DNA from: Candidatus Jettenia sp. AMX2
Lineage (GTDB): Bacteria; Planctomycetota; Brocadiia; Brocadiales; Brocadiaceae
Direction of reading: 5' to 3'
Length of the DNA: 64,000 bases
Assembly: GCA_030583665.1 (NCBI GenBank)
Contig: CP129469.1
Coordinates: 372,001 to 436,000 of the forward strand
Below the pieces are notes generated by a model. That model was not told where the DNA came from. It saw only the letters and a program-made list of their open reading frames with translations, and made no database searches. Position 1 is the first letter of the stretch, and each line of letters begins with the position of its first letter. Below, in pieces: positions 6,975-50,640 of this stretch. A program made the position numbers and the translations under genes.

Positions 6975-7002
6975 CATTTTTATCTGACGATAGATAAAAA
7001 TG
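6975..7002. promoter_or_regulatory. Perfect 11-bp palindrome, candidate enhancer site (copy 2)
   Basis: CATTTTTATCT and its exact complement are separated by six bases. The site lies 12 bases after the stop of the NtrC-type regulator and about 210-240 bases upstream of the predicted sigma-54 start site of hzsBCA, a distance suitable for an upstream activator sequence. The core matches the palindrome at 2956-2983. It could also act as a weak transcription stop, but it has no GC-rich stem. Confidence 0.5.
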
Positions 7003-7015
7003 GTGTGACCTTAAA

Positions 7016-7044
7016 TTGACACGTTTTATGTTGTTTATTATTAA
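7016..7044 (+). promoter_or_regulatory. Candidate sigma-70 promoter of hzsBCA
   Basis: A consensus -35 TTGACA is followed after 17 bases by TATTAA as a -10 element. Spacing is ideal and the -35 is perfect, but the -10 matches only partly. If used, it would give an untranslated leader of about 400 bases before hzsB. It may work alongside the sigma-54-like promoter further downstream. Confidence 0.4.
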
Positions 7045-7085
7045 ATAGATATGACAATATCTTTATATTAAAACCTGTTTTAGAT

Positions 7086-7099
7086 GACCATTTATGGTC
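7086..7099. promoter_or_regulatory. Inverted repeat GACCAT-TT-ATGGTC upstream of hzs promoter
   Basis: Two perfect six-base arms are separated by two bases. The site is about 115-125 bases upstream of the predicted sigma-54 start, a typical enhancer distance for NtrC-type activators. Binding by the adjacent regulator is inference only. Confidence 0.35.
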
Positions 7100-7186
7100 T
7101 TTTGCCTCGTTTTGCTATATTGGGAGTGTTTTTGTAATTACCAAATAAATAATCACTTATGTTGTAAGTAGAATGTGTCTGACGAG

Positions 7187-7202
7187 TGGTATTTCTTTTG
7201 CT
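7187..7202 (+). promoter_or_regulatory. Candidate sigma-54 (-24/-12) promoter of hzsBCA
   Basis: The sequence TGGTATTTCTTTTGCT has the invariant GG and GC dinucleotides exactly ten bases apart and keeps the TTGCT -12 element; the -24 element is TGGTAT instead of TGGCAC. The predicted start site is near 7213, leaving a leader of about 235 bases. A sigma-54 activator gene lies directly upstream. The same 14 bases (GGTATTTCTTTTGC) recur upstream of the porin gene at 49214-49227. Confidence 0.55.
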
Positions 7203-7305
7203 CACGCTGATGATTGTTATTATACGAAAAATTTTTGCGATTCGTTATAAACACAAGATTATTAACTAATGCTATACTGAATACTGTTTTTTTATAATCA
7301 GTTTT

Positions 7306-7319
7306 GAAAGGAGGTGATT
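7306..7319 (+). promoter_or_regulatory. Distal Shine-Dalgarno-like element in the hzs leader
   Basis: GAAAGGAGGTGATT is a nearly full complement of the 16S rRNA 3' end, yet it lies about 130 bases upstream of the hzsB start, which has its own AGGAGGT site. Equivalent elements occur upstream of HOX, HDH and the porin. No start codon at normal spacing opens a sizeable frame: the nearest TTG gives an 11-codon ORF. Confidence 0.45.
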
Positions 7320-7447
7320 GTTAAGGTTACGAATTTGCAAAAATAAGTTGTAAAGATTAGTGGTTTGAGTAATAGGATTTTATTTTTGTTTTGTTCCGTT
7401 TTATTTTTGGTTCCAACGTTTAATTCCAAGAGACAGGAGGTAGATAG

Positions 7448-8578
7448 ATGCGAAGAGGAATAATAGGTGCGTTGGTGATAGGAGGAGCGATGGTGACGGG
7501 GGGCGGGATAGCCAGTGCGGGATTTATCCAGGGTACCCATGTCAAGACAGAGCATCCGTCGCCGTTTTTTGTCACGACGTCACCGGATGGGAGTATTTTG
7601 TTTGTGGTAAATCAGTCGGGTCACAGTGTAACATTTATTGATACACGGACACAGAAGATCATGGGTGAGGTTGCGGTACAGGTGCAGCCGGAGGCTGCGG
7701 CACCAACGCCTGATGGTTCTTTCTTGTATGTATGCAATGCGGAGAGCGACAGCGTATCGGTGGTAGACGTTGCGAGGAGGCAGGTAGTAAAGGACATCAG
7801 GGTAGGCGACTGGCCGAGTGGGATAAAGATATCGAAGGATGGTAAGACTGCGTATGTTGCATGTTCAGGGAATATGTGGAACACGGTAGATGTGATCGAT
7901 ACGGGGAGGATGGAGAAGATCAGGTCGATATATACGAGTGCATATGGTCCGAGGACATTGGATATATCACCTGATGGGAAGCAGTTGGCGGTTATCAATG
8001 ATTCGGTTGGTTCCATTAACCGGAGCGTGGATTTTATAGATGTGGCTACGGGGAAGGTGACAGAGAACCGGATAATCAAGGAGAGTTCAAACCTCAGGGA
8101 CGTGGTGTATACGCCGGATGGCAAGTATGTTGTTGTCACGTATGAGACTCCGAAGAACTGGTTGCCGGTATGTGAGGCAGAGAACGGGCAGGTGTTTACG
8201 AACAACATAGCGGTGTTGGAGACAAAGCCGGGTGGAAAGGTAGCACGGTTGCCGCTGGATGAGTTGAACAATTATGATGGGAATCCGTATGGTTTGGCGA
8301 TGGATCCGCAGGGAAAGTATCTGTATGTTGGGGTACGCGGGATGCATCGGGTTACTATTCTGTGTATGAACAAGGTTTTGGAGATTGTTCGTTCCAACAG
8401 CCAGGCAGAGCTTGATTATCTGAGGGATGATCTTGGACTGGTAAGGGATTATCTGATAGCAAGGGTTCCGGTAGGGCTTGGGCCAAGTTCAGTATGTTTG
8501 TCACCGGATGGTAAGTTTTGTTATGCGGCGAATTATTTTTCCAACAATATTTCTGTGATAAAGACGCCGGTGGATTAA
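7448..8578 (+). CDS. hzsB: Hydrazine synthase beta subunit
   Basis: The 376-residue protein has a signal peptide (cleavage likely after GIASA) and a YVTN-type seven-bladed beta-propeller: repeats such as SPDGSILFVVNQSGHSVTFI, TPDGSFLYVCNAESDSVSVV and SPDGKFCYAANYFSNNISVI are visible. HZS is the anammox enzyme that condenses NO-derived hydroxylamine with ammonia to give hydrazine; it works as a crescent-shaped dimer of alpha-beta-gamma heterotrimers inside the anammoxosome. The beta subunit carries no CxxCH heme motif and is structural, as here. The ATG is preceded by AGGAGGT. It opens an operon with hzsC and hzsA, the same order as the Kuenenia genes kuste2859-2861. Coding DNA is strikingly G-rich with many AGG and GGG codons. 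Confidence 0.96.
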   Translation: MRRGIIGALVIGGAMVTGGGIASAGFIQGTHVKTEHPSPFFVTTSPDGSILFVVNQSGHSVTFIDTRTQKIMGEVAVQVQPEAAAPTPDGSFLYVCNAESDSVSVVDVARRQVVKDIRVGDWPSGIKISKDGKTAYVACSGNMWNTVDVIDTGRMEKIRSIYTSAYGPRTLDISPDGKQLAVINDSVGSINRSVDFIDVATGKVTENRIIKESSNLRDVVYTPDGKYVVVTYETPKNWLPVCEAENGQVFTNNIAVLETKPGGKVARLPLDELNNYDGNPYGLAMDPQGKYLYVGVRGMHRVTILCMNKVLEIVRSNSQAELDYLRDDLGLVRDYLIARVPVGLGPSSVCLSPDGKFCYAANYFSNNISVIKTPVD

Positions 8579-8636
8579 TATTGATTGTTGGATTGTAAGA
8601 GGCGTTAGGAAAGGATAATTTAGGAGGAATGAGAGA

Positions 8637-9662
8637 ATGAGCAGAGGAATAGTGAAGATCGGTTTGGTTGCAGCCCTTGGTATTGCAGGGGTAGCAACGA
8701 CCGGTGAATTGATGGCGGGGATGCCACAGGTTATCGGGGTGATTCAGACGGGGCCGGAATGGGAGATGCTTCCAAGAGGTGAGCCATTAACGGTGCCTGA
8801 GGTACATTACCGGGTAAAGCATTCACCGTTTAAGAGTGAGCTGGTGAGATACGGTCAGTTTATATTCAATGATGCTTCCTGGGGTCTGCAGGGTGAGTAT
8901 GCATGCGCCAGTTGTCATTATGAGAGAGGTCAGACAACGGGTTTGATCTGGGATTTAGGAGATGAAGGCTGGGGGAGCTGGAAGAACACGAAGTACATTC
9001 GTGGCGGAAGGTATCTGCCGCCGTTCAGGCATGAGGGTTTCACGGGTCATCCTGATGAGATCGTGGGAGCGACGAGTTCTCTGGACCGTGTATGCGGAAG
9101 GGATCCTGGTTTTGTGTTCAGGAGTGAGAACTTTTCACCTGAGAGGCTTGAGGCGATCATTTGCTATATCAGGGCATTGGAGTTTACGGGTAGTCCGTTC
9201 AGAAATCCGGATGGGAGTCTGACAGAGGCGCAGAAGCGTGGCGAGAAGATATTTAACGATCCGAAGGTAGGATGTGCAGAGTGTCATCCTGGTGATGCGC
9301 TGGATACGAGGTCACTGTTTAGCGATGCACAGACGCATGATGTAGGAACCGGAAGGGTAGGAGTAAAGGGGTTCCGTTCAACGCCGGGTAAGGTATTTAA
9401 CCAGGCAGCGCTGGAGGCAGGGGAAGATCCTTATGGTGAAGAGAGTGATACGCCGATTATCGGGTTAGACCTGGTGAAGGAGTTTGACACGCCGACGCTG
9501 AGGGATATTTATGCATCAGGCACCTATTTTCATGATGGTGGGGCAAGGACGCTGATGGACACGATTAATAATACGGTGAATGACAAGGACATGCACGGCA
9601 GGACATCCCATCTGACACAGCAGGAGATGGAAGACCTGGTAGAGTTTATGAAGGCGTTATAA
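8637..9662 (+). CDS. hzsC: Hydrazine synthase gamma subunit (diheme, CCP/MauG-like)
   Basis: The 341-residue precursor has a signal peptide (cleavage near ELMAG) and two c-heme motifs, CASCH at 90-94 and CAECH at 213-217, in the fold of diheme cytochrome c peroxidases and MauG. In the crystal structure of the Kuenenia enzyme one gamma heme is the proposed site where NO is reduced to hydroxylamine, and a tunnel leads to the alpha subunit. Further histidines expected as distal ligands are present (for example TSHL and YFHDGG). The gene follows hzsB by 58 bases with an AGGAGG site and precedes hzsA. It is not fused to hzsB, unlike in Scalindua. Confidence 0.96.
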   Translation: MSRGIVKIGLVAALGIAGVATTGELMAGMPQVIGVIQTGPEWEMLPRGEPLTVPEVHYRVKHSPFKSELVRYGQFIFNDASWGLQGEYACASCHYERGQTTGLIWDLGDEGWGSWKNTKYIRGGRYLPPFRHEGFTGHPDEIVGATSSLDRVCGRDPGFVFRSENFSPERLEAIICYIRALEFTGSPFRNPDGSLTEAQKRGEKIFNDPKVGCAECHPGDALDTRSLFSDAQTHDVGTGRVGVKGFRSTPGKVFNQAALEAGEDPYGEESDTPIIGLDLVKEFDTPTLRDIYASGTYFHDGGARTLMDTINNTVNDKDMHGRTSHLTQQEMEDLVEFMKAL

Positions 9663-9706
9663 GGTTTTAGGGAAAAAAATCAGAAATGAAAGGAGAAGAC
9701 CAACTG

Positions 9707-12139
9707 ATGAGTAATAAGAGAGTATCAGTAGCAATGGCATCAGCGCTGGTGGCTGGTGCGTTGGTCTGTGGGGAAATCTTTGCGGCTAACAACCAGGTAA
9801 TGACTGGCGGTTCCAAGCCGGGGAAGGCCTTATGGACAGATTATAGTGGCATGTCGAAGGAAGTGCAGGGTCCTGTAGATACGATTCTGTTTACACAGTC
9901 ACCGAGGACAGAGAAGGGTGATCCGTATCACAACTATCCGCATTATGTTTCTGAGGGTAGCAGGATTGTATCACTGAACCTGAAGACGAAGGAACTGAAG
10001 GTATTAACAGGTGATTTTGCGTCAGCGTTTGACCCATGCACCTATTGGGACGGGAAGAAGTTTACGTTTGCCGGTATTCACAAGAAGGGCGGCGGATGTC
10101 AGATCTGGGAGATGAACATTGACGGAAGTGGATTGAGGCAGATGACAGATTATAAGGGAACCTGCCGCAGTCCCATTTATTATGCAGCGGGGAGTATCGA
10201 GGAAGGAAAGGGACGTATTATATGGCGTGACAGGTATTTTGAGGGAGACTGGAAGGAAAGAGGGACGGTAGACAAGACCGGATTCATCATTTTTGCAGGA
10301 GCTCCCGAAGGGGTGATGGACGAGTATCATCAGCCCTATGCTTACAACCTGTACCGTTTGGATACTCAGGGTGGACATGTAACGGAGAGAATAACCGGGC
10401 ATGTATTGTCAGGAATTGAGTATTCACAGTTAAATACCACGATAGATCAGATTACGTATAATTTAAGTTCGAATTATGATCCGTGGTTAACCCCGGATGG
10501 AAACATCCTGTTTTCGAGCGTGCAGGCGAACGGTAGCAGGGCAGGCGGAGAAGGCAGGGTAATGCTTTGTGTGGACAACTGGGATGGTGCATATCCAAGG
10601 CATATATTTGGGAATTATGATGATAGTATTGGAGGGACATGCGGGAGATCGCAGGCCAAGATAACCTTTGGAGACAGGAAGATTGTCTTTGTTGAGTCAC
10701 CATACAGGAATTGGGGTGTAGGGCAGCTGGCAGCAGTGAGCTGGGATGCTCCGTTCAACAAGACCTATGAGAGGGTAAACAAGGATGAAGGCGGGTTGTA
10801 CCGGAGTCCGTATCCGCTTCCGGATGACAGGATGCTGGTATCGTATGCATCCCGTGGTGATTTTGGGATATACTGGTTTGATTTTAAGAATTGCCGTGCC
10901 GGTGAGTTGGTGTATGATGATCCGGAGTGGAACGAGCACCAGCCAGCCCCTGTATATACGAAGTACAGGCCAAGGTGGATCAACACCTTTACGGCAGGTA
11001 AGGATTTTGGGGTGACGGTAGTTACCTATCAGCCGTTTGATCAGGTGAAGGTGGAAGGGTATCCGCATTCCTGGGGAACCTGGATTTGTTTTGACACGAC
11101 GTTAACGCAGGCACCGGTAGGTCCCTATCCGCACCAGAGGGCGAAGGTAACAAAGCCTGGTGATATAAAGGCGGTAAGGATTATTCAGGGAGTACCGTGC
11201 GTTGAGCCGGATGCATCACGTTTCAAAGCAGGAGCGGGAAGTCATCTTCTGGGAGGAGCCAGGTCAAGCACGAATTCCGGGACGGCGTTTCAGCAGAGGA
11301 AGATCATTGGATATCAGTATGTAGAGGATGATGGTTCAGTGGTAACATCCCAGGTATCCGATACTCCGTATTACATCCAGAATCTGGATGAGAGGGGGAT
11401 GGCGGTACAGTCTGCACTGATGTGGGCATATTTAAGGCCATATCATGGGAGGATATGTAGTGGATGTCATGACGGTTCGTATTCAGGAAGGGCATTCCAG
11501 AATCAGCATACGAAGGCGTTGTACAACTGGTGGTATGATGACAGGAGTCACTATGATTCACCTTTTGCATTTGCATACATAAAGTTTGACAAGCAGGGAA
11601 TTTATCAAGGTGTAAAGCACGGGGATGATGTTGTGGTACCGTCAGACGTATATTATGGTGGTCCGTCAGGAACGACGTCCCAGCCGGTGGAAGGGTTAAC
11701 GGAGGAGAAGAGAAGGACGGTGGATTTCAGGAGGGACATTCAGCCGATTATAGATGCGAAGTGTGCGAAGTGTCATGATGCAAACAATCCGCCGGAGTTG
11801 ACAGGTGGTGCAGAGCCAGTTAACGTTGATGGGATAGCGGCATTCAGCAGGGCATACAACAGCCTGCTGGTCCCACAGAGGGGCAAGGATCCGAACATTG
11901 GTGGCAAGTATGTAAATCCGTCAGCGGCCATCAACAGCTTGCTTGTCTGGAGGTTATATGAAGAGCCGTTAAGTCAGTTTACGCCGAAGGAAGACGTATT
12001 TCCGAAGGAAGGCCGGGTGTTGCATGATAAGTTCCTTACCCAGGAAGAAAGGTATATGATTGTAGAATGGATTGACATTGGTGCACAATGGGATAACATT
12101 CAGGGGCCTGACTTCTATGCAGGGTATCGGGGAAGGTAA
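9707..12139 (+). CDS. hzsA: Hydrazine synthase alpha subunit (catalytic diheme subunit)
   Basis: The chosen ATG (GAAAGGAGA upstream) gives an 810-residue precursor; an in-frame ATG seven codons earlier overlaps that site and is less likely. A signal peptide ends near EIFAA. The large N-terminal part is a propeller, followed by a heme domain with CSGCH at 584-588 and CAKCH at 686-690. Tyr592 lies four residues after the first heme histidine; in the Kuenenia enzyme the equivalent Tyr591 ligates heme alpha-I, the site where hydroxylamine and ammonia are combined. Keeping this residue supports a working enzyme. A strong terminator follows 55 bases after the stop, closing the hzsBCA operon. Confidence 0.97.
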   Translation: MSNKRVSVAMASALVAGALVCGEIFAANNQVMTGGSKPGKALWTDYSGMSKEVQGPVDTILFTQSPRTEKGDPYHNYPHYVSEGSRIVSLNLKTKELKVLTGDFASAFDPCTYWDGKKFTFAGIHKKGGGCQIWEMNIDGSGLRQMTDYKGTCRSPIYYAAGSIEEGKGRIIWRDRYFEGDWKERGTVDKTGFIIFAGAPEGVMDEYHQPYAYNLYRLDTQGGHVTERITGHVLSGIEYSQLNTTIDQITYNLSSNYDPWLTPDGNILFSSVQANGSRAGGEGRVMLCVDNWDGAYPRHIFGNYDDSIGGTCGRSQAKITFGDRKIVFVESPYRNWGVGQLAAVSWDAPFNKTYERVNKDEGGLYRSPYPLPDDRMLVSYASRGDFGIYWFDFKNCRAGELVYDDPEWNEHQPAPVYTKYRPRWINTFTAGKDFGVTVVTYQPFDQVKVEGYPHSWGTWICFDTTLTQAPVGPYPHQRAKVTKPGDIKAVRIIQGVPCVEPDASRFKAGAGSHLLGGARSSTNSGTAFQQRKIIGYQYVEDDGSVVTSQVSDTPYYIQNLDERGMAVQSALMWAYLRPYHGRICSGCHDGSYSGRAFQNQHTKALYNWWYDDRSHYDSPFAFAYIKFDKQGIYQGVKHGDDVVVPSDVYYGGPSGTTSQPVEGLTEEKRRTVDFRRDIQPIIDAKCAKCHDANNPPELTGGAEPVNVDGIAAFSRAYNSLLVPQRGKDPNIGGKYVNPSAAINSLLVWRLYEEPLSQFTPKEDVFPKEGRVLHDKFLTQEERYMIVEWIDIGAQWDNIQGPDFYAGYRGR

Positions 12140-12194
12140 TCATTGCCTTGTTCCTGCATTGCAGGTATGGAAGAACGGTAAGAAGTAAATAAGG

Positions 12195-12240
12195 AAAGAG
12201 CCGGGTTTGCATGGTCTCGCCATACTGCCCGGCTCTTTTT
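12195..12240 (+). terminator. Rho-independent terminator of hzsBCA
   Basis: AAAGAGCCGGG pairs perfectly with CCCGGCTCTTT; the loop holds a second partial stem (GCATGG...CCAT) and the hairpin is followed by a run of T. It separates hzsA from the HOX gene, which has its own promoter. Confidence 0.9.
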
Positions 12241-12305
12241 GTTTACAGGCGTCAAAAAAGGGTTTTTCTTTCATAATCCATGCAGGTGGTTTGTTGAAAA
12301 TATCC

Positions 12306-12333
12306 TTGACAAGGTTATGTTCCCCGTTATAAT
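12306..12333 (+). promoter_or_regulatory. Consensus sigma-70 promoter of the HOX gene
   Basis: TTGACA and TATAAT, both perfect, are 16 bases apart. The predicted start near 12340 gives a leader of about 180 bases. The perfect match fits the very high expression expected for anammox octaheme proteins. Confidence 0.85.
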
Positions 12334-12394
12334 GAAAAGACTTTTGTTTAACCACAAGTTGAAGTACTTTTTAAACCTTTAGAGGTAAATAACC

Positions 12395-12406
12395 GGAAGG
12401 AGGTGG
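12395..12406 (+). promoter_or_regulatory. Distal Shine-Dalgarno-like element in the HOX leader
   Basis: GGAAGGAGGTGG lies about 115 bases before the HOX start, which has its own GAAAGGAGA site. The only frame beginning at the element (GTG) stops after five codons. It matches the elements before hzsB, HDH and the porin. Confidence 0.4.
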
Positions 12407-12518
12407 TAAGGGTAGCCTAAAAAGCTGTTGTGTAAAGGGTTATCGATTTGTTGTTGCGGATGTTGCAAAATATAAAGATGTTTTGTGAATTGTGTCTTAA
12501 GAGAAAGGAGAAGGATTA

Positions 12519-14126
12519 ATGCTTGAAATCTTTAAAAAGCCATTATCCAAAGCTGCAGGGTTGGCGTTTGTGCTAGCAGGGGCAACGCTTGTAACGTGTG
12601 CTGTTGGGAATGGAACAGCGAAAGCTGAGGGGCCGACATTTCAGGATGTTGCATCTCAGGTATTTGGCCAGGCGGTAGGCCCGGATAATGACGGAACCTT
12701 GTATATATTTGGGTTGACAGCAAAATATACACCGCCTGAATATTTTGAGGGGAGAGGACCTTATAAATCATTTTTAAAATTTTTACCCTCAATTCGGTGG
12801 TATGATCCTGAGCATTACTGGACGCCAGGCAGCCAAAATGAAGGAGTTTTTAAAAACGAAGAGTGCGTTCTTTGCCATACAGTGCAAACCCCTACCATTG
12901 TTAAGGATTGGAAGTTGAGTGCCCATGGTGATGCTGGCAAGAGGAGAGGCATTGTAACTAAAGATGGGAAACAGTTTGAAGGTGTTGTTGGCTGTGATAA
13001 ATGTCACGGTAACGATCATCAAAAGCTTTTTATGCCTACCTATAAACATTGCGGAGAATGCCATCCGAAAGAGACAGCAGAACATAGGTCAGGTGAGTTA
13101 GGCTCCCATACTCATGCGTTCACAGTAAATACGCTTGAATTTTCATGGCAGTTAGGAAAACCGGCAGAAGAGGTTGCTGGTTGTGCAGAATGTCATGCTA
13201 TTGCTGAAAACAGGTGCGATGGTTGCCATACAAGGCATGTATTTAGCCCTGCTGAAGCACGAAAACCAAGTGCATGCAGATATTGCCATATGGGTATTGA
13301 CCATGACGAATGGGCAATGTATAACACATCCATTCACGGCTGTCTGTGTGAGGCTGAGTCAGCGACTATGGATTGGAGTAAGCCAAGCAAAAAAGGAAAC
13401 TACAGGGTTCCGACATGTGCCTACTGTCATATGCAGGATGGGAACCATAATCCGCAGCAGTTCAGCACAATTTACAGCGATATGGGGATGTTCCAGGTTG
13501 AGCGTGGAGCTCCAAGGTTTAAGGCAAAGAGAGATGCATGGATAAAGAAATGCCAGGACTGTCATTCTCCGAGGTTTGCTGCTGACAAACTGAATGAAAT
13601 GGACGCTGGTATAAGGGTAAGTTTTACAAAATGGAGGGAAGCCGCGGCTATCATCGTTGGCTGCTTCCTGGACGGTGTTGTTGATCCGATGCCGGAAGGT
13701 TCACCGCCTGACTGGTATGGGCATTATACCTTTAGTTTATTGCCCGGTGGTGATCCAAGATTCTATGCGACATCGAATATCGAGCGGCTGGGTCTTGAAA
13801 TGATCTGTTATTTGATTGGCAATACCTATAAGGCTCTGGCTCATATGAGTATGTATAATGCAACCTATGGAAATGGCGGTGCATTTGAAACAGACAGAAA
13901 GTTGATTGAAATCAAGACTGAGGCTGCCAAGTTGCGCAGGTTTGCTGCCATCGAGAAGCACATTGGTCTAGAGCATCAGTCAGAATTGTTTTGGAAACAT
14001 GGTGAATATTCAGATCTTCTGCCGGGTTGGAACAGGAAAGAAGGTGATGTGGATCAAGAATGGTTTAAGAGGACTGATATACCTCACCGTGCGAATGCAG
14101 ATGCTGGCGTTGAAATACACCATTAA
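12519..14126 (+). CDS. hox: Octaheme hydroxylamine oxidase, HAO-like (HOX type)
   Basis: The 535-residue precursor has a signal peptide (cleavage near GTAKA) and eight CxxCH motifs between residues 116 and 349 (CVLCH, CDKCH, CGECH, CAECH, CDGCH, CRYCH, CAYCH, CQDCH), the HAO fold with a catalytic P460-type heme 4. Tyr450 in NATYGNGG is at the position of the tyrosine that is covalently cross-linked to heme 4 in the neighbouring subunit of the homotrimer, a mark of oxidising rather than reducing family members. Length and sequence resemble Kuenenia kustc1061, which oxidises hydroxylamine to NO and so recycles leaked intermediate into hydrazine synthesis. The HOX assignment over other anammox HAO paralogues is from recall, not alignment. 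Confidence 0.9.
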   Translation: MLEIFKKPLSKAAGLAFVLAGATLVTCAVGNGTAKAEGPTFQDVASQVFGQAVGPDNDGTLYIFGLTAKYTPPEYFEGRGPYKSFLKFLPSIRWYDPEHYWTPGSQNEGVFKNEECVLCHTVQTPTIVKDWKLSAHGDAGKRRGIVTKDGKQFEGVVGCDKCHGNDHQKLFMPTYKHCGECHPKETAEHRSGELGSHTHAFTVNTLEFSWQLGKPAEEVAGCAECHAIAENRCDGCHTRHVFSPAEARKPSACRYCHMGIDHDEWAMYNTSIHGCLCEAESATMDWSKPSKKGNYRVPTCAYCHMQDGNHNPQQFSTIYSDMGMFQVERGAPRFKAKRDAWIKKCQDCHSPRFAADKLNEMDAGIRVSFTKWREAAAIIVGCFLDGVVDPMPEGSPPDWYGHYTFSLLPGGDPRFYATSNIERLGLEMICYLIGNTYKALAHMSMYNATYGNGGAFETDRKLIEIKTEAAKLRRFAAIEKHIGLEHQSELFWKHGEYSDLLPGWNRKEGDVDQEWFKRTDIPHRANADAGVEIHH

Positions 14127-14166
14127 TCTGTTAAACTGAAACAAAAGTTAAGTTTAAATAAAATCA

Positions 14167-14206
14167 CAATGAGGGTGGCAGAAGTAAAAGTTTGCTGCCC
14201 TCATTG
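14167..14206 (+). terminator. Hairpin after HOX, possible terminator or attenuator
   Basis: CAATGAGGG-T-GGCAG pairs with CTGCCCTCATTG with one bulged base, followed by a weak T-rich stretch (TATTTAT). It lies between HOX and trpB, so it may reduce but perhaps not abolish read-through into the tryptophan genes. Confidence 0.55.
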
Positions 14207-14241
14207 TATTTATGGATATAGTTAATCGCGAGGATTTATTT

Positions 14242-15489
14242 ATGGAAACTAAAGTATTAAATTCCACGCAGGTAAAATTACAAAAAGTACCTGAAGGTTT
14301 GACGTTGCCGGATAAAATGGGCCACTTTGGACGGTTTGGTGGGAAGTTTGTTCCGGAAACAATAATGCCCGCCCTTGATGAATTAGAAAAAGCTTATTTG
14401 GAAGCTAGAAATGATCCAACTTTTACGACAGAACTGGAATATTATTTACAGGAGTATGTTGGCCGTCCTTCTCCGTTATATTATGCTGAACGGCTAACAA
14501 AAAAACTGAACGGTGCAAAGATATACCTTAAAAGAGAAGATCTGAATCATACAGGGGCACATAAGATAAATAACACTATTGGCCAGATACTGCTTGCTAT
14601 GCGAATGAATAAGAAAAGAATCATTGCTGAAACAGGGGCTGGACAACATGGAGTAGCCACAGCAACTGCTGCTGCGATGTTCGGAATAGAGTGCAATGTA
14701 TACATGGGAGAAGAAGACATGAGACGTCAGTCGTTGAATGTCTTTAGAATGAAGTTGCTCGGCGCAAAAGTAATACCAGTAACAAGTGGTTCAAGAACAT
14801 TGAAGGATGCAACAAATGAGGCGCTGAGAGACTGGATGGCATCTGTACAGCATACACACTATATTATTGGATCAATTGTTGGCCCGCATCCATATCCGAT
14901 GATGGTTAGAGATTTTCAGCTGGTAATTGGCAGGGAGGCAAAGAAACAGATAATTGAGAAAGAAAACAGACTTCCGGATTATCTTATAGCCTGTGTTGGT
15001 GGGGGTAGCAATTCAATAGGTTTATTCCACCCTTTCATTGAAGATAAGCACGTAAAGATGATCGGTGTGGAAGCCGGAGGGGTTGGATTTGGTATTGGCC
15101 AGCACGCATCTACATTGACCAATGGTAAAATTGGTATTTTACATGGCAGTGCAAGTTATGTTTTACAGGATGAGGATGGCCAAACATTGCCGGTTCATTC
15201 CATATCTGCCGGATTAGACTATCCTGGTGTTGGCCCTGAACACAGCTACTTAAAAGATATTGGAAGGACAGAATATGTCTCTATCACAGATGATGAGGCT
15301 GTAAATGCTTTTCAGGACTGTGCAAGGCTTGAAGGAATTATTCCCGCCCTTGAGGCATCACATGCGATTGCATATACCATAAAACTTGCTCCCACACTCA
15401 GTAAGGATAGCCTCATTATTGTGTGTTTGTCAGGCAGCGGTGACAAAGATTCCTTCGAAGTAGCAAAAAAACTTGGTTATAAGATTTAA
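14242..15489 (+). CDS. trpB: Tryptophan synthase beta chain
   Basis: TrpB condenses indole with L-serine using pyridoxal phosphate. The ATG preceded by GCGAGG gives 415 residues; an upstream in-frame ATG lacks such a site. Family marks are [10 protein letters not shown] at the N-terminus, the Schiff-base lysine in HTGAHKINN, the substrate loop ETGAGQHG and the phosphate-binding GGGSNS. It is of the standard TrpB1 type, which fits having trpA next door. The pair lies between two respiratory heme-protein genes without other trp genes, an unexpected position; only the HOX hairpin and no clear promoter separate it from HOX. Confidence 0.97.
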
Positions 15490-15552
15490 TCAAACATTAT
15501 TTATATAACTCATTGGTATCTATTTTTGAAAAGTGTTTATTGACAGGTTTCC

Positions 15553-16356
15553 ATGAACAGAATTGATAGAAAATTCCAGGAATTGAAAAGAAAACAAAAA
15601 CCTGCTTTTATACCATTTATTACAGCAGGGTATCCCGACCTGCAAACCACAATGGACCTAATACTGGAATTTGAAAAGAAGGGCGCTGATATTATCGAGC
15701 TTGGTATTCCCTTTTCTGACCCGATAGCAGACGGCCCGGTCATTCAGGATTCTTATTATAAGGCGCTGGATAAGGGTGTTAAGGTCGCGCAAATATTTGA
15801 TATGGTATTACAGCTTCGTAAAATATCAGATATTCCCATTGTTTCAATGGTTTCATATAGTATAGTATATAAAAGCGGATACCAGGAGTTTGTTGAAAAG
15901 GCATGCAGGGCAGGATTGGATGGTTTGACTATTCCTGATTTACCCGTAGAAGAAAATGATGAATTTTTTGAATTAGCGAAGAAATATAATTTTAAGCTTA
16001 TTTGTTTTATCGCTCCTACAACAACAAATGAACGTATGTCTGCCATTATACAAAGATCTCAGGGTTTTTTGTATTATATTTCTGTCGTAGGGATCACAGG
16101 CGTAAGAGATGCATTACCAGATGATATTTTTCAAAATATCAATAAGATAAAACAGATGACAAGTACGCCAATCTGTGTGGGCTTTGGTGTCTCAACCCCA
16201 GAACAGGTAAAGATGATTGGTAAGCTAGCCGATGGGGTTATTGTTGGGAGTGCAATTATTAAGGAGGTGGGAAAATATTTAAATACCTCTCCCGGTGAAC
16301 TAGTAAAAAACGTTAGTGGTTTTGTTGGGGAATTGGCAAAGGGGGTAAATATTTAA
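15553..16356 (+). CDS. trpA: Tryptophan synthase alpha chain
   Basis: The 267-residue TIM barrel cleaves indole-3-glycerol phosphate and channels indole to TrpB. FIPFITAGYPD and ELGIPFSDPIADGPVIQ contain the two catalytic acids, the Glu of ELG and the Asp of IADG; the phosphate-binding GVSTPEQ and GSAI segments are present. It follows trpB by 63 bases and is probably co-transcribed. Nothing like a terminator follows; the HDH promoter starts about 80 bases downstream. Confidence 0.97.
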   Translation: MNRIDRKFQELKRKQKPAFIPFITAGYPDLQTTMDLILEFEKKGADIIELGIPFSDPIADGPVIQDSYYKALDKGVKVAQIFDMVLQLRKISDIPIVSMVSYSIVYKSGYQEFVEKACRAGLDGLTIPDLPVEENDEFFELAKKYNFKLICFIAPTTTNERMSAIIQRSQGFLYYISVVGITGVRDALPDDIFQNINKIKQMTSTPICVGFGVSTPEQVKMIGKLADGVIVGSAIIKEVGKYLNTSPGELVKNVSGFVGELAKGVNI

Positions 16357-16434
16357 CTAAATTATTGCAAATATGATTAATGTTTAAAGATTTATAAATA
16401 TTCATGTTTGATAATAAAATAATTAACTTTTATA

Positions 16435-16462
16435 TTGACTTAAGTACAAGTTTAAGTATAAT
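16435..16462 (+). promoter_or_regulatory. Sigma-70 promoter of the HDH gene
   Basis: TTGACT and a perfect TATAAT are separated by 16 bases, the same spacing as in the HOX promoter. The predicted start near 16469 gives a leader of about 165 bases before the HDH start. Confidence 0.8.
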
Positions 16463-16552
16463 GGCAATTCCAACTATTGTTTGAAATCTTACAGGTAGCA
16501 GTTAGATAAATTGCGTAATACAGGTGTGTAGGCTTTAAATGTTTTGAAAATT

Positions 16553-16566
16553 GAAAGGAGGTGATC
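16553..16566 (+). promoter_or_regulatory. Distal Shine-Dalgarno-like element in the HDH leader
   Basis: GAAAGGAGGTGATC is a perfect 14-base complement of a typical 16S rRNA 3' end but lies about 70-100 bases before the plausible start codons. A frame beginning at the element with a non-standard CTG would stop in TAG just before the ATG at 16636; the frame starting with GTG stops after seven codons. Related elements precede hzsB, HOX and the porin. Confidence 0.45.
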
Positions 16567-16635
16567 TGCAAGAGTCAGTGGTAGCGTTTGTTTTAATAAG
16601 GGCAATCGATTGGCGATTGTGGAGGATTGAATAGG

Positions 16636-18372
16636 ATGGAAAGGAGGAAAACGTATACTAATATGCATAAATTTTTAAAAGTAACATTGGCTTCAGCATT
16701 GGTAGGGTGTGGAGTGATGGGTGCCATGTCCGGTCTAATGCAGAAAGAGGCAAAAGCAGTAGAGATTATTACTCACTGGGTACCTCACGAAGTGTATGGT
16801 ATGCCGGGAGAACCAGACAACAACGGTAAGGTGTTCTTTTCCGGATTGGCAGCGAAATATATGGGGTATCCCAAGGATGAAAACCCGCCGCCATATCCTG
16901 GTAAATACAGTAAGTTCTGGAGAACATTACCGGCATATCGTTATTATATTCCTGATTTTATGTACAACAGGGATGAAGTAAGGCCCTCAAATCCCATTAA
17001 AGGAACATTTCAGAATGAGCAGTGCGTTGCATGTCATTCTGTTATGACACCTGGTATTGTCAGGGACTGGAAGAAGAGCGCTCATTCAAGGGCAGAACCA
17101 GCTCCAACGGGATGTGATACCTGTCATGGGAATAACCACCAGAAGTTAAGCATGCCTTCTTCAAAGGCTTGTGGAACAAGTGAATGCCACGAGACACAGT
17201 ACAACGAGCAAGGACAGGGTGGTATCGGTTCACATGCATCTTGTTCAAGTTTTGCTCAGGTTGAATGTGCTTGGTCAATTGAAAGGCCACCGGGAGATAC
17301 GGCCGGTTGTACTTTCTGTCATACAAGTTCGGAGGAAAGATGCAGTACCTGCCACCAGAGGCATCAGTTTGATCCGAAGGTTGCAAGACATGCTGAGCAA
17401 TGCAAGACATGTCACTGGGGTAAGGATCACAGGGATTGGGAAGCATATGACATTGGTCTCCATGGTGTTGTATATCAGGTAAACAAATGGGATCCGAAGC
17501 AGTTTGATTGGGACAAAAAACTGGCAGACGCTGATTATGTTGGTCCGACGTGTCAGTACTGCCATATGAGGGGTGGTCATCACAACGTGCAGAGGTTTGG
17601 CACCGTGTATACCAGTATGGGTATGTCAATGGCCGATCGCGGCGCGCCAATCTGGAAAGAGAAAAGGGATCGCTGGGCATCTGTGTGTGACGATTGTCAT
17701 TCACCACGGTTTGCAAAGGAAAATCTGCAGGCAATGGATGAATCCGTCAAGGATGCAGGTTTGAAGTATCGCGAGACCTTTAAGGTTGCAGAAGACCTTC
17801 TTAAGGATGGCGTACATGATCCGATGCCAAAGGATCTGTGTCCTGACTGGTCAGGTCAGCATATCTGGAGTTTGAAGATCGGTGCTTATCATGATGGTCC
17901 GGAATACGGCGGTCAGACCGGCGAGTCCGGTGAGTTCAGGATGTCAAACGTTAGCAACGTTGAAAGGCTTTGCTTTGAGAGCGTAGGGTATTTCCAAACC
18001 TACATTTACAAGGGCATGGCACATGGTTCATGGAATGATGCGACCTATAACGACGGTTCTTTCGGTATGGATCGTTGGTTGGTTAACATAAAACATGATG
18101 CTTCCAAGGCAAGGAGACTTGCAGCCCTGGAGAAGAAGGTTGGTATTACTTGGGTACCAGAATCTTTCTGGAAGACAGGTGAGTGGCTTGATGAGTTAAC
18201 AGGCCCTTACATAGTAAAGAATCATCCTGGAAAGACCATCTTCGATCTGTGTCCTGATCCGGGTTGGTTAGATACCCACCATGCACCTGTTGAGGAGGTT
18301 GAGTACATCAACAGGAAACTGGAAGAGTTAGGCATGAGGTCTGAATCACATGGGCTCCACGGAGTTCACTAA
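16636..18372 (+). CDS. hdh: Octaheme hydrazine dehydrogenase
   Basis: HDH oxidises hydrazine to N2, giving four low-potential electrons in the anammoxosome. Eight heme motifs lie between residues 130 and 355: CVACH, CDTCH, CGTSECH (CX4CH, also known for heme 3 of the Kuenenia enzyme), CTFCH, CSTCH, CKTCH, CQYCH and CDDCH. The cross-linking tyrosine is Tyr471 in DATYNDGS. The protein closely resembles Kuenenia kustc0694. The start is uncertain: ATG 16636 has GGAGG ten bases upstream, while ATG 16663 (peptide MHKFLKVTLASAL) has AAGGAGG at a long 15-base distance and matches the ortholog's N-terminus as I recall it. Both keep the signal peptide, cleaved near KEAKA. It follows trpA and has its own promoter and terminator. 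Confidence 0.96.
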   Translation: MERRKTYTNMHKFLKVTLASALVGCGVMGAMSGLMQKEAKAVEIITHWVPHEVYGMPGEPDNNGKVFFSGLAAKYMGYPKDENPPPYPGKYSKFWRTLPAYRYYIPDFMYNRDEVRPSNPIKGTFQNEQCVACHSVMTPGIVRDWKKSAHSRAEPAPTGCDTCHGNNHQKLSMPSSKACGTSECHETQYNEQGQGGIGSHASCSSFAQVECAWSIERPPGDTAGCTFCHTSSEERCSTCHQRHQFDPKVARHAEQCKTCHWGKDHRDWEAYDIGLHGVVYQVNKWDPKQFDWDKKLADADYVGPTCQYCHMRGGHHNVQRFGTVYTSMGMSMADRGAPIWKEKRDRWASVCDDCHSPRFAKENLQAMDESVKDAGLKYRETFKVAEDLLKDGVHDPMPKDLCPDWSGQHIWSLKIGAYHDGPEYGGQTGESGEFRMSNVSNVERLCFESVGYFQTYIYKGMAHGSWNDATYNDGSFGMDRWLVNIKHDASKARRLAALEKKVGITWVPESFWKTGEWLDELTGPYIVKNHPGKTIFDLCPDPGWLDTHHAPVEEVEYINRKLEELGMRSESHGLHGVH

Positions 18373-36294: not shown

Positions 36295-37539
36295 TTAGTG
36301 TGTTACTGCCATTTTCTCTTCCATAATAGCGTCGAACTCAGCGAGGGAAGGATTGATAGTCTTCGGTGTCTCGAGCTTATCGATAACTGCCTCCTGCGTC
36401 TTTAGCCCGTTTCCTGTAACGGAAATCACAATAGATTCGTTTCTTGGTATCTTACCTTGTTCAATAAGTTTCTTTGTGACCGCTACAGTTACACCTCCTG
36501 CAGTTTCTGTAAAAATACCTTCAGTTCTTGCCAGGAGTTTTATGCCTTCTACAAGCTCATCATCGGTTACATCCTCTGCCCATCCACCTGTCACGGTAAT
36601 GGTTTTTATGGAGAAGAATCCGTCTGCCGGATTGCCAATTGCGATTGATTGTGCGATTGTCTTTGGCTTTACAGGTTTTATTACGTCTGTCTCCATTTTG
36701 ACAGCAGTGGTTATTGGTGCGCTCCCGCTGGCCTGGGCGCCGTGTAGTTTTGTATCTGCTTTATCGATAAGTCCTAATTTTTCAAATTCCTTAATAGATT
36801 TTTCAATTTTTGTAATTAAAGACCCGCCTGCCATAGGGACGACAATATGCCGCGGAGCCTTCCACCCAAGCTGTTCCATAATTTCATAACCATAGGTCTT
36901 AGAACCTTCTCCATAATAAGGCCTTAAATTCACATTTACAATAGCCCAGCCGTATTTATCTGCTATCTCGGAGCAGAGCTTATTTACATTATCGTAGTTT
37001 CCTCTGACCTTTATTACGTTTGTGCCATAGATTAATGTCCCGATAATTTTCCCCTGTTCAAGATCTGCCGGCATAATAATATAACTTTCAAGGCCTGCCT
37101 GTACCGCCTGCGCTGCTACCGCATTTCCTAAGTTGCCTGTGGTAGCGCATCCTACCGTCTTATATCCGAATTCCTTTGCTTTTGTCAGGGCCGTTGATAC
37201 AACACGGTCTTTAAAAGAAAAAGTGGGATAATTTACGGAATCATTTTTTATATAAAGTTCTTCTACGCCCAGTATCTTTGCCAGATTATATGCCTTAATA
37301 AGAGGTGTAAAGCCAACATGTGCGCCAACCGTAGGCTCGCCGTCAACAGGGAGGAGTTCCCGGTAACGCCACATCGTTTTACCCCGTGATTCTATTACTT
37401 TTCTGGTAAGAATTTTTTTGATTTTCTCGTAATCGTATTCAACCTCTAAAGGACCAAAGCAAAACTCACAAACGTGTAAAGGCTCTTTTGGATACGGCTT
37501 TCCACATTCCCGGCATTTTAAACCTTTCACAAATCCCAT
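36295..37539 (-). CDS. thrC: Threonine-synthase-family PLP enzyme, SAM-riboswitch controlled
   Basis: The start ATG is chosen because GGAGGCGAAAAG precedes it, giving 414 residues. An N-terminal zinc ribbon (CRECGKPYPKEPLHVCEFC) is followed by a fold-type II PLP domain with the Schiff-base Lys in YPTFSFKDR and CATTGNLGNAVAAQA. By family it would convert O-phosphohomoserine to threonine. However, a SAM-I riboswitch heads the transcript and a sulfur-carrier gene follows, within a methionine-cycle neighbourhood, so it may instead insert sulfur into O-phosphohomoserine to give homocysteine. Sequence alone cannot decide. An ordinary ThrC elsewhere in the genome would favour the second role. Confidence 0.88.
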   Translation of the reverse strand: MGFVKGLKCRECGKPYPKEPLHVCEFCFGPLEVEYDYEKIKKILTRKVIESRGKTMWRYRELLPVDGEPTVGAHVGFTPLIKAYNLAKILGVEELYIKNDSVNYPTFSFKDRVVSTALTKAKEFGYKTVGCATTGNLGNAVAAQAVQAGLESYIIMPADLEQGKIIGTLIYGTNVIKVRGNYDNVNKLCSEIADKYGWAIVNVNLRPYYGEGSKTYGYEIMEQLGWKAPRHIVVPMAGGSLITKIEKSIKEFEKLGLIDKADTKLHGAQASGSAPITTAVKMETDVIKPVKPKTIAQSIAIGNPADGFFSIKTITVTGGWAEDVTDDELVEGIKLLARTEGIFTETAGGVTVAVTKKLIEQGKIPRNESIVISVTGNGLKTQEAVIDKLETPKTINPSLAEFDAIMEEKMAVTH

Positions 37540-37568
37540 CTTTTCGCCTCCGGCTAATCTAGCCAATA

Positions 37569-37750
37569 AAAAAGCCTCTTTCTCTATATAAATAAGATAG
37601 GAAGAGGCTTTCTTGTGTCCCTATCTTATCTTTTCCCATAATATGAGACAGGAATTAGCACCAGCATCTTATCCTTCAGCATATACTTTCGGATAAGACC
37701 GGTTGCTGTGGCTTCTCAGGGCCAGTCCCTCAGCCACTCTCGATAAGACA
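37569..37750 (-). ncRNA. SAM-I (S-box) riboswitch with terminator/antiterminator
   Basis: Reading the minus strand, the aptamer (37748 to 37624) shows the S-box landmarks in order: TCTTATCGAGAG, GAGGGACTGGCCC, GCAACC and GGTGCTAATTCC, closed by P1 arms TCTTATC and GATAAGA. Downstream an intrinsic terminator is formed by AAGCCTCTT and AAGAGGCTTTTTT (37610-37571). The 3' arm of P1, GATAAGATAG (37630-37621), can instead pair with CTATCTTATT inside the terminator (37600-37591), forming the antiterminator. SAM binding should therefore stop transcription before the threonine-synthase-like gene. S-box riboswitches normally regulate methionine, SAM and sulfur genes. Confidence 0.95.
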
Positions 37751-49228: not shown

Positions 49229-49329
49229 AAATCGCAATATTTGAGTATCATTCTGCTCGCAAAATTGTGTATTTTATGATTATTTTGAGTTTTAGGTAAA
49301 ATATATCTGGCTATACAAAAATATTTTGA

Positions 49330-49340
49330 GAAAGGAGGGA
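49330..49340 (+). promoter_or_regulatory. Distal Shine-Dalgarno-like element in the porin leader
   Basis: GAAAGGAGGGA lies about 90 bases before the porin start, which has its own GAAAGGGGGG site. No start codon follows at normal spacing. It corresponds to the elements before hzsB, HOX and HDH. Confidence 0.4.
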
Positions 49341-49428
49341 TAAGAAATAAAGAAAACTATTATCGCCATTAGTTTTGCAGCTTGTGAAATAGAACGGTAA
49401 ACGTTAATTTTTGAAAGGGGGGTACTAT

Positions 49429-50640
49429 ATGAAGTATGTATTGAAATTCTGGCTGGCTTGTATCGTATGGCTGGCCTGCATTGCCGGGGGAGCAATAACG
49501 AGCTTTCCGTCATCAGCTTATGCTGCTGAAGATGAGAGCCGGTTGGCTGCCTTCATGAGGGGTATAGAATTTTCTGGCTTTGTTGATACCTATTATAGTT
49601 ACAGGTATTCAAGGCCTGATAAGGTGGAAACAGGGAGCGAAAACCAGTTTCTAAATTTAAGGGCGTGGGATAGAAGGCACAATTCCTTTGCATTGAGCAA
49701 TATACAGCTTTCTGTGTTCAAACCATCGACAGAGGAGAGTCCTATTGGTTTTGGTTTTGTTACCCATTTTGGTGATATTGCTAATCAGGTAATGAATCCG
49801 GATACCAATGAATTTGGAGATGAGATATCTGACAAATTTGCCATCCAGCAGGGGTTTGTTACCTATAAAGCTCCTATAGGCAATGGGTTGGATTTTAAGG
49901 TTGGAAGGTTTGCAACCTGGATTGGCTCAGAACTCATAGAGACCGTTGATAATCCGAACTATTCCCGCGGACTCCTGTTCACTAATGCAATTCCATATAC
50001 CCATACAGGGATCGCTATCAGCTATCCTTTATTGGATACCTTAACGACATCTGCGTTCTTTGTAAACAGTTGGGATGGTCAAGACCAGGATAATAATTCA
50101 GCAAAGAGTTTTGGATACCAGTTTCACTGGGCCTTTGGACAGAATACGGACGTGGTATTTAATGGTATCCATGGGGCAGAACGCGAGGACAGCAGCAAGG
50201 ATTTGAGGCACCTCTGGGATATTGTTGTTGCTCATAGGGTTATGGAAGGGACAAAGCTTATCCTCAATGGTATTTTTGGAACAGAGGCCGGTGGGGGAGC
50301 AACCGGAGGTGTTGGTAAATGGTGGGGGTTCTCCGGTATTCTTTCACAGGACATTACCGATGCCTTTGGTCTTGCACTGAGGGGTGAGTATTTTGATGAC
50401 GGCGATGGTGCTATGACAGGTGTTGCTACTGGAGCCGGTATTGAAGATTCCTTAGGTGCGCTTGTTGGTACTCGCGAAAAAGGTCTTCGGGTCTGGGGAG
50501 CAACACTTACCGCCAATATTAAGATCAGGGAAAACCTCCTGGTAAGACCTGAGGTCCGTTACGATGAGGCAAACCAAGGGGCATTCAGGGGTCACAGGAG
50601 CGACCTTTCAACGGCAATGAGTTTTGCCTATCTGTTCTAA
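49429..50640 (+). CDS. Outer-membrane porin, OmpL-like (BBP2/DUF1597 type)
   Basis: The ATG after GAAAGGGGGG gives 403 residues with a signal peptide ending SAYAA. The N-terminus of the mature protein, FSGFVDTYYSYRY, and the run of strands with aromatic edges match the OmpL-like beta-barrel porin-2 family; the C-terminus is a beta-strand ending in FAYLF with terminal phenylalanine, the BAM signal. It resembles the abundant porin proposed for Kuenenia (kustd1878), from recall. It has a long leader with sigma-70- and sigma-54-like elements and a terminator, all pointing to high and regulated expression. Confidence 0.88.
   Translation: MKYVLKFWLACIVWLACIAGGAITSFPSSAYAAEDESRLAAFMRGIEFSGFVDTYYSYRYSRPDKVETGSENQFLNLRAWDRRHNSFALSNIQLSVFKPSTEESPIGFGFVTHFGDIANQVMNPDTNEFGDEISDKFAIQQGFVTYKAPIGNGLDFKVGRFATWIGSELIETVDNPNYSRGLLFTNAIPYTHTGIAISYPLLDTLTTSAFFVNSWDGQDQDNNSAKSFGYQFHWAFGQNTDVVFNGIHGAEREDSSKDLRHLWDIVVAHRVMEGTKLILNGIFGTEAGGGATGGVGKWWGFSGILSQDITDAFGLALRGEYFDDGDGAMTGVATGAGIEDSLGALVGTREKGLRVWGATLTANIKIRENLLVRPEVRYDEANQGAFRGHRSDLSTAMSFAYLF

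Follow-up and report, generated by a model that had tools for sequence, protein, structure and literature searches.

Distal complements of the 16S rRNA 3' tail in the leaders of core anammox genes as candidate non-initiating 30S docking sites

In addition to an ordinary Shine-Dalgarno (SD) site near the start codon, the leaders of several core anammox genes carry a distal element that is complementary to almost all of the single-stranded 16S rRNA 3' tail and is conserved across genera and families. On this computed support we propose, with roughly even confidence, that each element lets a 30S ribosomal subunit dock, without initiating, on the 5' leader of an anammox mRNA of very high abundance.

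The window, a 64 kb stretch of a source genome that consists of a single 3.46 Mb contig, contains four such elements, ahead of hzsB, HOX, HDH and a porin gene (Table 1). Among the genomes compared, the nearest relative belongs to the genus Loosdrechtia. The 16S rRNA 3' end in the source genome reads ...GGCTGGATCACCTCCTTTCT, so a full complement would read AGAAAGGAGGTGATCC. When pairing with this tail was ranked over both strands of the window, ranks 1, 2 and 3 fell to the HDH, hzsB and HOX elements and rank 5 to the porin element, while the best near SD among 28 window open reading frames (ORFs) reached -17.3 kcal/mol (duplex with the 16S tail), weaker than all four distal elements. The sequence-only reading that first pointed to these elements had described matches to the 16S 3' end of 13-14 bases for hzsB and HDH, far beyond ordinary sites, upstream of highly expressed genes that each have their own near SD. 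These points held: the hzsB and HDH matches are perfect over 13 and 14 nt, the duplexes exceed that of the best near SD, a near SD is present at all four genes, and the association with high expression is supported. The distances it gave to the start codons (130, 115, 80 and 90 nt) were accurate for hzsB (129 nt), HOX (~112 nt) and the porin (90 nt) and somewhat short for HDH (96 nt).

Table 1. Positions of the distal elements and associated features in the window
Feature	Position	Strand	Basis and remarks
TATAAT, 7 nt before hzsB element	7293..7298	+	sequence; without good -35, uncertain
hzsB distal 16S-complementary element GAAAGGAGGTGAT	7306..7318	+	13 nt perfect; -23.9 kcal/mol; 129 nt before ATG 7448
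hzsB near SD AGGAGGT	7435..7441	+	sequence, duplex scan
hzsB, hydrazine synthase beta (beta-propeller)	7448..8578	+	orthologues
Hydrazine synthase alpha	9686-12139		Pfam
HOX promoter TTGACA-16-TATAAT	12306..12333	+	perfect in 25/25 element-bearing HOX leaders
HOX distal element GGAAGGAGGTGGT	12395..12407	+	9 nt exact, 13 with G.U; -22.0 kcal/mol; ~112 nt before ATG 12519; conserved
HOX near SD GAAAGGAG	12503..12510	+	sequence, duplex scan
HOX, HAO-family octahaem protein	12519..14126	+	PF13447, PF22142
HDH promoter TTGACT-16-TATAAT	16435..16462	+	score >=11/12 in 23/24 element-bearing HDH leaders
HDH distal element GAAAGGAGGTGATC	16553..16566	+	14 nt perfect; -27.0 kcal/mol; 96 nt before ATG 16663; conserved
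HDH inverted repeat CAATCG...CGATTG, between element and near SD	16603..16619	+	RNAalifold consensus hairpin (16 HDH leaders); local hairpin z
HDH near SD GAAAGGAGG	16639..16647	+	sequence
HDH, hydrazine dehydrogenase (HAO-family octahaem)	16663..18372	+	PF13447
Porin distal element AGAAAGGAGG	49329..49338	+	10 nt perfect; -18.9 kcal/mol; 90 nt before ATG 49429; conserved in other genera
Porin near SD GAAAGGGGGG	49413..49422	+	sequence, duplex scan
BBP2 family outer-membrane porin	49429..50640	+	PF07642

Genome statistics were drawn from pattern searches and selected stretches. Genome-wide, the pattern GRAAGGRGGTG occurs at 20 sites, two of them antisense 16S, whereas its reversal occurs at 3. 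An excess in the same direction was seen in five other Brocadiaceae, and most other planctomycetes searched were without it. Distal sites in the source genome precede hzsB, HOX, HDH, a focA-type nitrite transporter gene, two amt genes and the gene for one secreted protein with a CxxCH haem motif; the other matches are near SDs, lie within coding sequence or insertion sequences, or have no assigned gene. The distal targets that recur in five other complete or near-complete genomes, some at distances measured from a secondary in-frame start, are focA, amt, HOX, HDH, hzsB, an hzsC paralogue and the gene for a 114-aa secreted protein. The targets that recur encode secreted or membrane proteins of core metabolism, with ~70-150 nt between the distal element and the start of the gene. 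The amt genes bear out an earlier suggestion that ammonium transporters might share the pattern; the same suggestion for hao paralogues failed, as those examined are without the element.

Copies of a gene within one genome can differ in whether they carry the element. The Kuenenia genome (G032) has six focA genes, and only the copy at 1.15 Mb carries the distal element. By position, from which we infer the correspondence to published locus tags, this copy matches focA_2, which is highly expressed; published descriptions give hardly any expression for focA_1, 3 and 4 and low expression for focA_5. The source genome holds two near-identical hzs copies, the first with the element and the second without. 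The second hzsB (G000:C1:1139480-1140601, L261) lies closely behind another gene, like operonic copies in other genera.

The element is conserved among orthologues. At least 9 of the 11 letters of the consensus GAAAGGGGGTG were found in the best window of 30/30 focA, 27/30 HOX, 26/27 HDH and 9/25 hzsB leaders. Those hzsB leaders that lack the element mostly continue from an upstream gene, and the element is present where hzsB appears to start its own transcript. No reverse-complement control leader reached 9 letters (0/112); nine simply reversed controls did, owing to a partial symmetry in the composition of the motif. Of 18 readable porin leaders from the source genome and other genera, 17 contain AGAAAGGAGG or a closely similar variant with G, and HDH elements extend to Scalindua.

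Start codons are cleared behind the elements. Across 113 leaders from eight gene families, ATG, GTG or TTG was seen 5-11 nt behind the GGRGG core 5 times against 68 expected from the leaders' own background, a comparison among related sequences to which we attach no formal probability. Taken separately, focA, HDH, hzsB and porin leaders had no such codon, with 19.0, 14.6, 4.9 and 7.5 expected. This near-absence suggests that the elements are non-initiating sites.

A 30S subunit would pair with the distal element and, because no start codon is in reach, would stay there, while the 70-150 nt between element and start would still allow a second ribosome to initiate at the near SD. Such docking could have two outputs, protection of the message or standby loading, both of which the sequence-only reading had raised as possibilities. 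In the first, the anchored 30S would most likely shield the leader from 5'-end-dependent decay and keep the message ribosome-bound and long-lived, as the STAB-SD does for cry3A, a stability that would suit slow-growing cells keeping large enzyme stocks. We lean towards protection, which is favored by the tight pairing, the open near SDs, the very abundant proteins and the cry3A parallel; the hairpins described below favor standby.

The decay route is a complication for protection. No protein scored over the TIGR00649 cut-off for RNase J in seven anammox genomes, while B. subtilis was positive in the same search, and the weak matches examined look to us like other metallo-beta-lactamase-fold proteins. 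The published STAB-SD mechanism can therefore not be transferred unchanged, and protection would have to counter a different route of decay, such as RNase E or Y. In addition, since the predicted HOX and HDH transcripts start upstream of the element, they would have to be processed before their extreme 5' ends could be protected.

Under the standby alternative, which we consider possible but rather unlikely, the 30S subunit binds the open distal element, waits, and passes over a hairpin to the near SD, thereby raising the initiation rate. Between element and near SD, local hairpins do exceed shuffled sequences in stability, if weakly (mean z -1.5 for HOX, -1.4 for HDH and -1.1 for focA), and in predicted folds the element is unpaired somewhat more often than the leader on average (unpaired probability 0.51-0.59 vs 0.43-0.45). 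However, the near SDs are themselves open (0.53-0.69 unpaired), so that a standby site is not obviously needed, a transient standby contact should not require pairing as tight as 13-14 bp, and hzsB has no local hairpin more stable than shuffles. Whole-leader folding energies gave no signal (z near 0). RNAalifold found no consensus structure in the whole focA and HOX alignments, probably because of indels. Many HOX leaders (e.g. L165) contain a long hairpin, CUACGGUUGCC...GGUAAUAACGGUAG, between element and near SD, which seems to covary.

How the element varies bears on whether 16S rRNA is its partner. In 101 aligned elements, positions facing a 16S U showed 107 departures from A to G and 4 to a pyrimidine, and positions facing a 16S C were almost invariably G; weak hzsB windows, which probably do not represent elements, account for many of the exceptions. 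Since changes from A-U to G.U retain pairing, the variation follows the rules of pairing with the 16S tail. One position departs from this picture: at position 7, HDH, HOX and focA leaders favor G although A pairs better with 16S. Pairing strength does not account for this preference, and a G that pairs more weakly than possible counts against docking. It speaks instead for a motif reader distinct from 16S rRNA, either a small RNA or an RNA-binding protein, that would govern a post-transcriptional regulon of anammox genes, as does the fact that the fixed consensus is common to functionally linked genes. We nonetheless judge such a reader improbable, given that the motif varies by 16S pairing rules, that the identical sequence is the ordinary near SD of csp genes, and that no Rfam family matches. 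Covariance models gave no hit at E <=1 in 7000-17000, so no known Rfam leader RNA was recognized there. The csp (cold-shock protein) genes of anammox genomes carry the consensus as a near SD ~9-11 nt before the ATG (L188, L202, L239, L250, L258), which makes the G.U form a probable functional site of ribosome binding.

Docking on the mRNA presupposes that the element is transcribed, which the consensus promoters upstream of it indicate for HOX and HDH (Table 1). There the element begins 38-115 nt after the -10, and the predicted transcription starts lie ~30-110 nt upstream of the element. Transcription starting downstream of the elements had been named at the outset as an observation that would speak against them; the predicted HOX and HDH promoters lie on the other side. 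No clear promoter was found in focA and hzsB leaders. The TATAAT in front of the source hzsB element ends so close to it that its use as a -10 could place the transcript start right at the element. A DNA-level role, as a transcription factor site or promoter-proximal pause signal that ends up in the leader owing to promoter proximity, would fit the nearly constant distance from the -10 in HOX (60-75 nt in 24/25). We hold it to be very unlikely, because that distance varies from 38 to 115 nt in HDH, the site is not a palindrome and has the sense orientation in every leader studied, and a DNA site would not need start codons to be cleared behind it.

Least credible is that the element serves as the SD site of a short leader peptide: the source porin leader has a frame reading KKTIIAISFAAC after an ATA codon and one amt leader (L232) has ATG-AAA-TAA at the right distance, but start codons are depleted ~14-fold at 5-11 nt, HDH, HOX and focA conserve no frame behind the element, and the porin frame is missing from other genera. 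The earlier statement that no start codon opens a consistent leader peptide is thus borne out, and we reject this candidate. A chance purine run was also ruled out, by the conservation among orthologues and the genome enrichment of 20 sites vs 3, as was a relic near SD of decayed genes, by the family-wide conservation.

The closest known parallel to the proposed docking sites is the STAB-SD of cry3A in Bacillus thuringiensis, an SD-like sequence ~125 nt upstream of the start that does not initiate translation and stabilizes the mRNA (Agaisse and Lereclus 1996, reviewed in PMC4113751). Both are distal 16S complements ahead of massively expressed genes, do not initiate (in anammox, judging by sequence) and are accompanied by a separate near SD. 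The anammox elements differ in being conserved across an order and common to at least eight gene families, in pairing over a longer stretch (up to 14 nt), often in G.U form and frequently with a hairpin before the start, and in residing in genomes without detectable RNase J, where stabilization is proposed by analogy. A STAB-SD is placed at the 5' end of the stable transcript and blocks the 5'-3' exonuclease RNase J. As there is no detectable RNase J for the element to block, we do not count it as a strict STAB-SD member; by analogy, a STAB-SD variant shared by several genes, with a putative role in stabilization, is the most apt description of the elements.

Other systems share single features. 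Ribosome standby sites (PMC3936740) likewise involve an upstream 30S contact apart from the SD, with a structured leader between; there they are open regions, whereas the anammox elements have an extended anti-SD match and a near SD that is not clearly hidden. Extended SD motifs in Staphylococcus aureus (PMC13009471) also pair with the 16S tail beyond the usual core, but initiate at a start codon, while the anammox elements lie at sites without one. The polypurine 5' stabilizer of mycobacterial katG resembles them as a purine-rich 16S complement linked to mRNA stability (PMC2358910). In katG, however, the sequence serves as the near SD at 4 nt from the start and depends on translation, in contrast to a distal element without a start codon. 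A 16S-complementary polypurine 5' stabilizer linked to mRNA stability was also reportedly found in B. subtilis (Hue et al. 1995).

The view that such elements had not been described stands for anammox bacteria, for which the literature searched yielded no account, but not in general, since Bacillus thuringiensis and other Gram-positives have the same kind of element, the STAB-SD (PMC4113751). Our findings extend the STAB-SD idea from single Gram-positive genes to core genes of a Planctomycetota order, and suggest that the principle may not need RNase J. They bear on how slow or starved anammox cells maintain very high levels of hydrazine synthase and related enzymes, with a short conserved element linking these genes below the level of transcription. 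More tentatively, we propose a dedicated leader class, in which an anchored non-initiating 30S would mark and protect core energy-metabolism and transporter messages, a post-transcriptional regulon defined by 16S pairing and operating without RNase J. We know of no genetic system for anammox bacteria. The element is also a candidate leader for stable expression.

Some further observations concern individual loci. In 16639-16665, the HDH near SD lies 15 nt before the ATG, which is unusually far, and this spacing is kept in the HDH leaders of other genera. The conserved 114-aa secreted protein has a distal element together with a TATAAT-like sequence upstream in five anammox genomes (L181, L200, L216, L227, L257). 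Elsewhere in the window, Rfam matches were limited to a tRNA and a SAM riboswitch (RF00162, 85.8 bits) at 37623-37749 (-), which precedes a minus-strand ORF at 36295-37566.
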